The position numbers and the translations under genes are program-made. Below the pieces are notes generated by a model. That model was not told the DNA's origin. It did not search any database and saw only the letters and a list, made by a program, of their open reading frames with translations. Below are positions 15,634-20,244 of a DNA stretch of 35,598 bases, in pieces. The stretch's first letter is position 1, and each line of letters begins with the position of its first letter. This DNA comes from an uncultured Verrucomicrobiota bacterium (GTDB lineage Bacteria; Verrucomicrobiota; Verrucomicrobiia; Verrucomicrobiales; Verrucomicrobiaceae): the NCBI GenBank assembly GCA_903960845.1, contig CAJCCF010000572.1:1-35598 (forward strand), written 5' to 3'.

Positions 15634-18324
15634 ATGCTTCGATTTTTCATCTTCTTTCTCTGTGCCGCTTCCATCCACGCCGCTGACTGGCCGATGTGGC
15701 GACATGATGCAGGCCGCACGGCCTCCACGTCTCAGTCGATGCCGGAAAAACTCGATTTGCTCTGGTCACGCGAGCTGCCGCCGCTGCGCCCGGCTTTCAA
15801 AGAGACACGACTCCAGTTTGATCGCAGCTACGAGCCGGTCGTCGCCGGGAAGCGGCTCATCGTCGGCAGCTCGCGTGAGGATTGCCTCATCGCGTTTGAT
15901 ACCGACACCGGCGCGGAAGTCTGGCGAGCTTTGGCAAACGGCCCTGTGCGATTCGCGCCGGTCATCATCGGTGATCTCGTGCTCTTTGGTTCCGACGATG
16001 GCGTGATGCGCTGCGTGAAGCTCGCGGATGGCTCCGCTGTTTGGTCAAAGCGGGCCGTGCCATCGAATCGCATGCTGCTCGGCAATCAGCGCCTCATTTC
16101 CGTGTGGCCGATTCGTGGCGGTCCCGCCGTCAAAGATGGCCGCGTCTATTTCGCCGCCGGTGTCTGGCCGCTGGAGGGAACGTTCGTCTTCTGCTGGGAT
16201 GCAAAGACGGGCAAACAGATCTGGTGCAACGACCGCTGCTCCTACCTCTATGGCATTCATCCGCATCAAACCGAGGCCATGGGCGGACTCGCGCCGCAGG
16301 GCTACCTGCTCATCGATGGCGATGATCTCGTGGTGCCATGCAGCAACGCCTATCCTGCTCGCCTCGATCTCAAAACCGGTGCGCTCAAAGAGTTCGATCT
16401 TCCCTCCGCAGGCCGTCTCACCGGCGGATGGTTTGCCTCCACTCCCGCCGAACAAGAAGCACTCAAACTCAAACGCCGCGGCCTGCTTTTCGACGATGCC
16501 GTCAACGTGAAGCGTCACGAAGACAAACCCCGCGCTGAAGGCCTCACCGGCATTCAGCGCACGCTTCATGCTGCCGGTCGCGAGGTGAGTTTTGATGCCT
16601 TTGAAGGAGCTCACAGCGTCGTCGTGGCGGATGACAAAGTTTTTGTCGTCACCACCGACGGCATCTTGAAAGCCCACGGCATCGCCAAAGGCGAAGCCAG
16701 GCATTGGAAGCGCGAGATCGTGATCGAGAAGGCGGATGCAGAACTCGCGAAGACCATCATCAAAGCCGCTGGGACGGACCGCGGCTACGTGCTCATGTTA
16801 GGGTCTGACAAACCAGGATTGATCGAGTCCCTGCTAACAAACAGCCATTTTCATCTCATCATTCTCCCGGAGGATGGCGATTCCAGGCGTCGGCTGCTCA
16901 AGGCGGGTCTGTATGGTGAGCGTGCCTCATTGCTGCCCATGGATGCGCTGCTTCCACCCTTCTTCGCCAGCGTCATCCTCGCCCTCGAAGGCGGCCATGA
17001 GTCCTATGTGTCCCATCTCCGTCCTGTCGAAGGCCGGGTCATCGGCCCCGGAGCCAAGCTCATCCATACTCGCGGTCCGCTCACCGGCTCCACCAACTAC
17101 CTCGCTGACTGGAAACCCAGTGAAGATCCGTTCGTGCAGGCACCGCTCGGCGTGTTGTGGTTTGATGATGCGCTGAGCAACTTCAAGCGTGCGCCACAGC
17201 CGAAGATTGTCGATGGCGTCATGATCACGGCGGACAAGGATTGGCTCGATGCCACGAACCGCAAAGGCAAAGTCGATTACAAGCTGCTCGCTCCCGTGTT
17301 CAGCGACATCTACACCGGCCGCGTGCTCGATGAATACGAGGTTCCTGAACTTCGCGCCAAGTTTGGCAGCGTCGATATGCAGAGCATCCAGCCAGCGCAG
17401 TATCGCCCGCCGACTCAGAAGAATGATTGGTCGCCCGATCAACCGAAAGCAGGCATGAGAACCAATCCGCTCACCGGCGAGCAGGAGCCGCGCGTGTTTC
17501 CGAAAAGCTACGGCTGCGATGGCGGATTCGATTATGGCAACATCTTCACTTTCCGCAGCGGCACCGCGGCATTCTACGACAAGAAGGTCGAGAGCGGCAC
17601 CGTCCACATCAGCGGCCCGCGCAGCGGTTGCACGAACAGCATCGTGCCCGCCGGCGGCATCCTGAACGTCCCCTATTTCTACGAAGGCTGCACCTGCAGT
17701 TACCCGCTGCCCATGGCGCTCGCGCTATACTCCATGCCGGAGATCTTTGAGCAATGGGCCACCTGGGGCGCGGTGCCCGCTGCCTCTTTGAACGGCAAGA
17801 TCGAACGCCTCGGCATCAACTTCGGCGCGCCCGGCGACCGCAAGACACGCGATGGCACCCTGTGGCTCGATTACCCGAGCGTCGGCGGTCCCTCGCCTGA
17901 AATCCAGGTGCGCACCGAGCCCGAGAAGCCCGAGTTTTACTACCATCACTCCATCTGGATGAAGGGTGGCCAAGGCTGGCCCTGGGTCGCCGCCAGCGGC
18001 GTCAAAGCCCTGCGTGCCGCCACCATCTCCGGCCTCAAATCCGGCACCTACACCGTCCGCCTAACCTTCGCCTCGCCCAACGAAGACAAGCACATCTTCG
18101 ACATCGCCATTCAAGATAAGCCCACGCTCACCAAGCTCGCCCTGCCCGCCAAGCTGATCGCCACCACCCAAACCATCCCCAACATCCAAGTCACCGACGG
18201 CACTCTCACCTTGAAACTCACCGCCATCGAGGGCGAAACCCTCCTCAGCGGCATCGAGATCATCCGCGAGGGTTTGAAGCTCGGTGATGTGCCGGATGTT
18301 GCGCGGGTGTCGGGGAAGGAATGA
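15634..18324 (+). CDS. PQQ/BamB-like beta-propeller protein with degenerate methyltransferase-like insert and C-terminal malectin-like domain
   Basis: Signal peptide; ADWPMWRHDAGRT, FDTDTGAEVWRAL, CWDAKTGKQIWCND repeats; insert TDRGYVLMLGSDKPGLIESL...AGLYGERASLL; C-terminal SGLKSGTYTVRLTFASPNEDKHIFDIAIQ...LSGIEIIRE. Confidence 0.85.
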   Translation: MLRFFIFFLCAASIHAADWPMWRHDAGRTASTSQSMPEKLDLLWSRELPPLRPAFKETRLQFDRSYEPVVAGKRLIVGSSREDCLIAFDTDTGAEVWRALANGPVRFAPVIIGDLVLFGSDDGVMRCVKLADGSAVWSKRAVPSNRMLLGNQRLISVWPIRGGPAVKDGRVYFAAGVWPLEGTFVFCWDAKTGKQIWCNDRCSYLYGIHPHQTEAMGGLAPQGYLLIDGDDLVVPCSNAYPARLDLKTGALKEFDLPSAGRLTGGWFASTPAEQEALKLKRRGLLFDDAVNVKRHEDKPRAEGLTGIQRTLHAAGREVSFDAFEGAHSVVVADDKVFVVTTDGILKAHGIAKGEARHWKREIVIEKADAELAKTIIKAAGTDRGYVLMLGSDKPGLIESLLTNSHFHLIILPEDGDSRRRLLKAGLYGERASLLPMDALLPPFFASVILALEGGHESYVSHLRPVEGRVIGPGAKLIHTRGPLTGSTNYLADWKPSEDPFVQAPLGVLWFDDALSNFKRAPQPKIVDGVMITADKDWLDATNRKGKVDYKLLAPVFSDIYTGRVLDEYEVPELRAKFGSVDMQSIQPAQYRPPTQKNDWSPDQPKAGMRTNPLTGEQEPRVFPKSYGCDGGFDYGNIFTFRSGTAAFYDKKVESGTVHISGPRSGCTNSIVPAGGILNVPYFYEGCTCSYPLPMALALYSMPEIFEQWATWGAVPAASLNGKIERLGINFGAPGDRKTRDGTLWLDYPSVGGPSPEIQVRTEPEKPEFYYHHSIWMKGGQGWPWVAASGVKALRAATISGLKSGTYTVRLTFASPNEDKHIFDIAIQDKPTLTKLALPAKLIATTQTIPNIQVTDGTLTLKLTAIEGETLLSGIEIIREGLKLGDVPDVARVSGKE

Positions 18325-18391
18325 TTGCTTGTAGAAGCCTTCACAAAAGCTGGATCAGTGGCAAAGCAAAAGTCGCAAAAGAGTATTAGCC

Positions 18392-19699
18392 CTATGACCC
18401 ATTGGGGATTTCGAGTCTGAAACTGTTCTGAATCTGGGGCACCCAGTTATCCGTCACCTGGGCATGCGTCGCAAAATCCTGCCAACGCAGAACGGCGGAA
18501 CGCACTTCTTCAATGATCGCAGTGGCGCGTCCGCGCTTCATCCGCGCGCTCTTTTCGCAAGCTCGGAAATCAGACAACGTAAATCCGTCACGCTTACCAT
18601 TCATTGTCATCTGATGTTTAGCTGTCCATTCACCATTCGGATTGTGACTGTATGTCATATCAAAAGCAGGCGAGAGACTCCAGTGTCCGGCTTTGTTCAT
18701 TAAGAAAGCAATATTCTTCACATGATCATCTTGGTTGCGAGCGATGATATTGAAGGTCATGCGGCGAAATTGCTCTTCGACAGTTTCCATAGGCAGGTCG
18801 AGCTGATGTATAATTAGCAGTGCCTGCTCGTAGGCGTGCGCGCCTGCTTGATTGAAATCAAGATGTGCCATCGCACCGAGTGATTGCATGTGGAGCTTCT
18901 TGCCTCCGGACTGACGATCAAATCGACGTGTCATGAAATGTCTCCGTCCATTTTCTTCGAGAAGTCGGCATTCGCTCATCTGTATGCCTGCGGCCTTTGC
19001 CATCAGGGAATATGCATATTCAATGGCACAGAAACCTTTGGAATCATCGAGCTCCTTATCCTTGTTTCCGGCTACACCATCGAATTTCAGAAGCCAGTAT
19101 TCAAAGCCGTCACCTGCGGTTATTTGGCCTGAGCGGACCTCGTTGGTGTCGCGATTCCAGGCAATGACTGCCTTCGCGCGCGCGCCGCCAGCTGAGGTGC
19201 CTACCCGCAAAATGTCATTGAGCGCGTGTTCACGTTTGGCATCGGCAAAATTGCCTTTCAATTCAGCGCGATTTTGAAGCACTTCCGAAGCCAAGTGAAC
19301 CAACGAGTCGACCTCGATTTTCTTCGCCTTGCGTGGCTTCGGCCCAAGCACGGGCGCAAATTCAAGTGCTCCCATGCCTCGTGTGCCAGTGTAGCAAAGT
19401 CGCTCCACTGCATTAAAGCTCTCTGGTGTTCGCCCTTGCGTGGCTAACCATGCATTGATGAGTGCATTGCCGAACTTATCGGGCAACGAATCCGCGAGCA
19501 GTCCCGGCAGGTCGTGAAATGTACCGGGTGCGAGTTCTGGGAAGCTGTAAACCTTCTTAGCCAAAGGCATCATCAGAGGGGAAATCTCGATACCACTGCG
19601 AACAAAGTCAGGGTCATACTGAAACTCGGCCCCTTCACGCCGCTCATCCAACGCGACAGCGCCAATGGTTCGCCCCCAAAGCTGCACTTCCGCAATCAT
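18392..19699 (-). CDS. hipA: HipA-family Ser/Thr kinase toxin
   Basis: LPGLLADSLPDKFGNALI; GTSAGGARAKAVIAW; YWLLKFDG; NIIARNQDDHVKNIAFLMN; WSLSPAFDMTYS. ATGA overlap with hipB. Confidence 0.92.
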   Translation of the reverse strand: MIAEVQLWGRTIGAVALDERREGAEFQYDPDFVRSGIEISPLMMPLAKKVYSFPELAPGTFHDLPGLLADSLPDKFGNALINAWLATQGRTPESFNAVERLCYTGTRGMGALEFAPVLGPKPRKAKKIEVDSLVHLASEVLQNRAELKGNFADAKREHALNDILRVGTSAGGARAKAVIAWNRDTNEVRSGQITAGDGFEYWLLKFDGVAGNKDKELDDSKGFCAIEYAYSLMAKAAGIQMSECRLLEENGRRHFMTRRFDRQSGGKKLHMQSLGAMAHLDFNQAGAHAYEQALLIIHQLDLPMETVEEQFRRMTFNIIARNQDDHVKNIAFLMNKAGHWSLSPAFDMTYSHNPNGEWTAKHQMTMNGKRDGFTLSDFRACEKSARMKRGRATAIIEEVRSAVLRWQDFATHAQVTDNWVPQIQNSFRLEIPNGS

Positions 19700-20049
19700 G
19701 AATCATCCCCCCATTGCCAGTTTCTTGGTTTTGCATCCATGTTCTTTTTTGCGGATGCCCGCCGCCTTCGTTTCCCATGCATTCTCAATTGCTCCATGGG
19801 GCCTGGTGTGGCTTCTGGCACAAGCAGGTCTAGCCGCTCAAGCAAGCCAAGGGCTCTTAAAATTCGCACGAACCCTGCAAGATTTGCTGTCACTTCTCCC
19901 GCCTCTAACCTCTCGACGCGGCGTTTTGCCACTCTCGCCAGCCGTGCTAGCTTTTCTTGGCTCCACTCATGGTCCAAGCGAACATTGGCCAACCGTTCGC
20001 CAAAGCTTTTCAAGAATGCTTCGTCAGTGAGTTTTGTCGGTGACGTCAT
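19696..20049 (-). CDS. hipB: HipB-like XRE-family antitoxin/repressor
   Basis: FGERLANVRLDHEWSQEKLARLARVAKRRVERLEAGEVTANLAGFVRILRALGLLERLDLL = HTH_XRE. Confidence 0.88.
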   Translation of the reverse strand: MTSPTKLTDEAFLKSFGERLANVRLDHEWSQEKLARLARVAKRRVERLEAGEVTANLAGFVRILRALGLLERLDLLVPEATPGPMEQLRMHGKRRRRASAKKNMDAKPRNWQWGDDS

Positions 20050-20186
20050 AATTCGCCATTAATGGCGAATTATTACATTAATGTCAATTTATTCGCCATA
20101 TTTGGCGAATAATAAAAATATTAGCTATTCGCCATTTAAGGCGAATTAAGCGATAAAATGACACAAATTCGCCAAAAATGGCGAAT
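20050..20186 (-). promoter_or_regulatory. Four-site operator array for HipB
   Basis: TTCGCC-N6-GGCGAA at 20052-20069, 20092-20109, 20128-20145, 20168-20185; centre spacing 40, 36, 40 bp; AT-rich context. Confidence 0.88.
20058..20087 (-). promoter_or_regulatory. Candidate sigma70-type promoter of hipBA overlapping operator 1
   Basis: Minus strand TTGACA (20087-20082), 18-nt spacer, ATTAAT (20063-20058), 8 nt before the ATG at 20049. Confidence 0.5.
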
Positions 20187-20244
20187 TAGGTAACAATTAC
20201 CTCTCAAGCTTTAAGTGAAAACGAATGAAGAAAACGCCAAATCA

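Follow-up and report, generated by a model that had tools for sequence, protein, structure and literature searches.

The hipBA operon and its upstream array

The window analyzed here is a stretch of 35,598 nucleotides (contig CAJCCF010000572.1) from an uncultured Verrucomicrobiota bacterium, and contains a two-gene hipBA operon preceded by an array of four palindromes. On sequence evidence, these palindromes are most probably the autoregulatory operators of this toxin-antitoxin operon (probability of roughly 0.88). The hipB gene (19696–20049, minus strand) encodes a 117-residue XRE-type helix-turn-helix (HTH) antitoxin/repressor, with the recognition helix at residues 42–50 (K42 R43 R44 V45 E46 R47) and NWQWGDD at the C-terminus. 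The hipA gene (18392–19699, minus strand) shares 4 bp with the end of hipB and encodes a 435-residue HipA-type Ser/Thr kinase toxin. The HTH_31/HTH_3 domain of HipB and the Couple_hipA and HipA_C domains of HipA score above the curated Pfam cut-offs; the NCBIfam couple_hipB model matches HipB below its cut-off only. The catalytic motifs of HipA (Gly-rich TSAGGARAKA, NQDDHVKN and the PAFD Mg motif, with roles that we take from general knowledge) are intact and are conserved in the alignment. The XRE-type HTH antitoxin gene is located directly 5' of the HipA kinase gene, and by gene order, domains and catalytic motifs the locus matches a hipBA type II toxin-antitoxin module.

The array (20051–20186) is located directly 5' of hipB and consists of O1 (20051–20070, ATTCGCCATTAATGGCGAAT), O2 (20091–20110), O3 (20127–20146) and O4 (20167–20186), none assigned to a strand; O2, O3 and O4 each read ATTCGCC-N6-GGCGAAT. 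The centers are at -11.5, -51.5, -87.5 and -127.5 bp, respectively, from the hipB start codon. The layout is two 40-bp pairs, O1–O2 and O3–O4, with a variable middle gap that is 36 bp in the window. An exact search bore out the original prediction of four inverted repeats with spacers ATTAAT, ATATTT, ATTTAA and AAAAAT and center distances of 40, 36 and 40 bp: TTCGCC-N6-GGCGAA matches at 20052–20069, 20092–20109, 20128–20145 and 20168–20185, with no fifth exact match in the window. The perfect palindrome extends one base further on each side, to 20 bp. An upstream region with this composition would contain about 0.1 sites by chance.

Beyond O1–O4, the exact 20-mer has no copy in the 5.94-Mb, 774-contig assembly (~96% complete), so within the assembled sequence it is restricted to the array and is not scattered as an unrelated repeat; such scattering is what the original prediction had named as refuting it. 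The 18-mer TTCGCC-N6-GGCGAA has one additional match, in a GC-rich context (contig C429, position 12200), that looks like chance. The solitary copies that had been suggested as a route to a wider regulon did not materialize, and no regulon for the palindrome is visible in the source genome by exact search.

The 40-bp pair and the promoter among relatives

A first set of hipBA relatives was drawn from genomes of the window's phylum, Pseudomonadota and Spirochaetota. Many of these homologues are related to each other, so that rows and counts are not independent. With a site defined by at least 11 of 16 matched positions, 70 sites were found 5' of 45 homologous hipB genes, one of them that of the window, versus 4.1 expected from first-order shuffles. 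Most pairs have a spacing of exactly 40 bp, and many are located at -11.5 and -51.5; the proximal site frequently adjoins the hipB start codon, and loci with four sites have a middle gap of 27, 35 or 36 bp. In this set, four perfect sites are found only with the window HipB.

The spacing was also recovered by a consensus-free scan of spacings from 20 to 60 bp, with a sole peak at 40 bp in the closer relatives (mean 22.2 versus 15.6–17.3) and a peak at 40–41 bp in the more distant ones. The basic unit is therefore the 40-bp pair, present twice in the window. A second set, consisting of previously unused genomes of Bacteroidota and of the window's class, was analyzed with any spacing from 30 to 50 bp allowed, and the best spacing was 40 or 41 bp in 29 of 47 loci. 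The pair thus recurs at 40–41 bp in hipBA relatives of the window's phylum, Pseudomonadota, Spirochaetota and Bacteroidota.

Exact TTCGCC was found in none of 29 hipBA relatives of the window's phylum; their sites are degenerate and were recovered by the later mismatch-tolerant scan. The search for HipB homologues with the palindrome upstream, as originally proposed, was successful elsewhere. A scan of 85,462 species genomes for exact pairs gave only two matches spaced 40–41 bp, both hipBA promoters, with perfect TTCGCC pairs in Luteimonas and Treponema bryantii, whose HipB proteins are 41% and 35% identical to that of the window, respectively.

A predicted -35 element, TTGACA (20082–20087, minus strand), is located between O1 and O2, with its first base 38 nt 5' of the hipB start codon. 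A weak predicted -10 element, ATTAAT (20058–20063, minus strand), lies inside the O1 spacer and puts the predicted transcription start within a few nucleotides of the start codon. A -35-like hexamer is located at -34 to -38 in many relatives, from which transcription would start at the start codon or close to it. The best promoter call falls at -41 to -34 in 22 of 41 loci of the first set and in 6 of 18 loci from the new genomes of the window's class (1.1 expected). A short leader, giving a nearly leaderless transcript, is thus likely in the window's group on these predictions. As a general trait of the family, the short-leader promoter was not upheld, with 6 of 47 such calls versus 3.5 expected in the whole second set.

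Recognition helix and half-site

With the pair spacing fixed at 39–41 bp and the best half-site taken for each locus, the half-site follows helix 3 of HipB. Proteins with KRxxER have TCG(C/T)C, those with KSTxER have TCTTC and those with KGTVAN have TATCA; further classes include [L/V]RTVQR with ACG(C/T)C, RRTLVGA with GAGCA and RRTITA with GCGCA, and others exist. For the KRxxER class, de novo half-site enumeration returned TCGCC-N6-GGCGA with a score of 24, versus a shuffle maximum of 3.5. The half-site of the window, which had been described as unrelated to that of E. coli, indeed differs from it, but it belongs to a series of states across the family that tracks HipB helix 3 and is not an isolated oddity.

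Over 47 loci, helix positions 42, 43, 46 and 47 covary with half-site bases, while positions 41, 44, 45 and 48 do so little or not at all. The mutual information (z 12–16) is concentrated on base 1, linked to K42 and E46, on base 2, linked to E46, and on base 3, linked to R43. A G at base 3 is found in 34 of 37 loci with R43 and in 0 of 10 without it (Fisher p = 5.5e-8, kinship ignored). The four covarying positions align with Q39, A40, S43 and N44 of E. coli HipB, some of which we take to be contact residues. The window HipB itself departs from the family at two near-invariant HTH positions, with R39 in place of G39 and R44 in place of T44 (19918–19935).

In the second set, KRxxER proteins again mostly have TCG(C/T)C, the exceptions being mostly AT-only calls, and LRTVQR or VRTVQR proteins again have ACGCC or GCGCC. 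Two loci of the window's class encode VSKSTVQR, one with GCTTC-N6-GAAGC and the other with a weak GCATC call. Judging from these sequences, this is apparently a separate change of R43 to Ser with loss of the G, as in Treponema. The residue-43 rule is not absolute: in a different helix class, one protein with S43 has a G (ATGAT).

These patterns may reflect a simple recognition code in this HipB lineage on a fixed 40-bp, two-dimer scaffold, a proposal that we consider about evenly balanced. Residue 43 would set base 3 (R for G, S for T or A, G for T) and residues 42 and 46 would set bases 1 and 2, giving natural sets of mutually insulated operators across phyla. The promoter would be positioned to give a transcript with almost no leader, and the proximal operator would end at its start codon.

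Known systems, alternatives and origin

The original prediction held that the four-site layout of E. coli recurs here, and only the pair-gap-pair order proved to be common to both. In E. coli K-12, four palindromes are likewise located 5' of hipB, which encodes an XRE-type protein and precedes hipA with a short overlap. However, the MG1655 sites are TATCC-N8-GGATA, centered at -125.5, -97.5, -58.5 and -30.5 with spacings of 28, 39 and 28 bp, whereas the window has TCGCC-N6-GGCGA, spacings of 40, 36 and 40 bp and a proximal center at -11.5; E. coli-type operators in 28-bp pairs are absent from the array. A phmmer search with the window HipA did not retrieve E. coli HipA at E ≤ 0.001. The related proposal of a conserved architecture with diverged recognition fared better: the 40-bp pair with changing half-sites supports it within this family, although the geometry is not that of E. 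coli.

Two other systems are comparable. In Legionella HipBST, several evenly spaced inverted repeats bound by HipB are likewise located 5' of the operon, namely three sites separated by 53-bp gaps (PMC10653801); moreover, the solved kinases nearest to the window HipA by sequence are HipT-type proteins. In contrast, the window has a two-gene operon with a full-length HipA that retains Couple_hipA (residues 4–114), rather than a separate hipS and a HipT without the N-terminal subdomain. The accessible part of a study of Caulobacter crescentus reports that the hipBA1 and hipBA2 promoters also contain a series of identical inverted repeats, and that part describes no helix-operator series (PMC7029023).

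The AlphaFold model of HipB (mean predicted local distance difference test score of 77) is an all-helical HTH protein with a disordered tail. Among solved structures, it most resembles a Vibrio regulator (4ghj) and HipB of Pseudomonas fluorescens (9u9g), followed by HipB of Shewanella, Legionella and E. coli. A WxWGD-type motif in the tail (~19699–19722) is common in HipB relatives and, by analogy with E. coli W88 (PMC3376134), is possibly a HipA-binding or degradation end.

Three other origins of the palindromes were weighed. Four near-identical palindromes within a short AT-rich gap could belong to an intergenic repeat family, resembling repetitive extragenic palindromes or miniature inverted-repeat transposable elements, that is here by coincidence, but such a family would not explain an exact 20-mer confined to the array within the assembly, nor a 40-bp pair that is located 5' of hipB across several phyla even though its half-sites change. 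A dispersed repeat was rejected by the genome-wide pattern search and is largely refuted; it is the least probable of the three. RNA hairpins, acting as a terminator or attenuator against read-through from the upstream PQQ-repeat gene, would fit the calling of O4 as a terminator-like stem on the minus strand. However, terminator-like matches number 3 versus 2.8 expected from shuffles, the AT-rich spacers vary while the half-sites and the 40-bp DNA spacing are constant, and the half-site bases track the HTH helix, which makes this explanation very improbable.

The sites might instead serve another regulator, such as a LexA- or XRE-type repressor of the host. In Rhodanobacter (locus L009, 1466–1516), a TTCGCC-N6-GGCGAA pair is located just 5' of a LexA-like gene; its spacing, however, is 33 bp. 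The covariation across phyla is with the helix of the adjacent hipB, and the array of the window sits at the hipB start codon and is absent elsewhere in the genome. Operators of a different repressor are thus unlikely, if slightly less so than RNA hairpins.

Several observations nevertheless weigh against autoregulation by HipB as outlined here. The Rhodanobacter pair means that the half-site alone does not identify HipB, and about one fifth of the loci have no clear pair of sites. The -10 element is weak, a strict promoter scan found no promoter, and the short leader was not seen in Bacteroidota of the second set. The counts for R43 and base 3 are not independent, because residue 43 changes only about two times on the tree, and a tree-based independent-pair test has too few independent contrasts for significance.

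Autoregulatory operators of hipBA are the interpretation that we favor, and the covariation of helix and half-site gives indirect support to the putative binding by HipB. A HipB dimer would place one recognition helix on each TCGCC half-site, and the operators would work as two 40-bp pairs, with O1–O2 straddling the promoter. Since the -35 element lies between O1 and O2 and the weak -10 element inside O1, a dimer bound at O1 would keep RNA polymerase out. O3–O4 would make repression tighter by way of contacts from dimer to dimer on the DNA, with HipA as the probable bridge, as it is in E. coli, where HipB represses cooperatively and bends the DNA by 70 degrees with HipA (PMC3376134); we infer by analogy that the cooperativity and the bend carry over to the window hipBA. 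A drop in HipB would relieve repression, with the transcript starting at or near the hipB start codon.

The module appears to extend approximately from 18325 to 20240 (no strand assigned), between two convergent PQQ-repeat-like genes. GC content at third codon positions is 0.55 in hipA and 0.52 in hipB, compared to 0.74–0.77 in three neighboring genes, and the module is absent from the junction in two congeneric genomes. These low values and empty sites support horizontal acquisition of hipBA. The AT-rich patch first cited as its sign is real (31% GC at 20050–20200), but it consists of promoter and spacer DNA, and its AT-richness is weak evidence by itself. At the same junction (18296–20240 in the window, L083 3047–3448), one congener (G1060) holds 402 bp of unrelated DNA between flanks of ~91–96% nucleotide identity, and in the other (G1076) the two flanking genes almost touch. 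Given this differing content, insertions may have occurred repeatedly at the junction. No HipA match at E ≤ 1e-60 was found in three other genomes of the genus, no HipB relatives at E ≤ 1e-5 in plasmid and phage records, and no HipA relatives in IMG/VR by the method used; plasmid HipA relatives are all less than 60% identical.

On sequence grounds, the array of the window is thus real and well conserved and very probably consists of operators of a known kind. Its geometry and half-site differ from those of E. coli, and the surrounding recognition series is informative. So far, HipB operators have been characterized only in a few systems. With the spacing kept across phyla and the choice of bases tracking a handful of helix residues, the specificity of HipB would be predictable from sequence, and the family offers natural single-residue contrasts such as R43 versus S43. 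This bears on possible cross-repression between neighboring hipBA modules.
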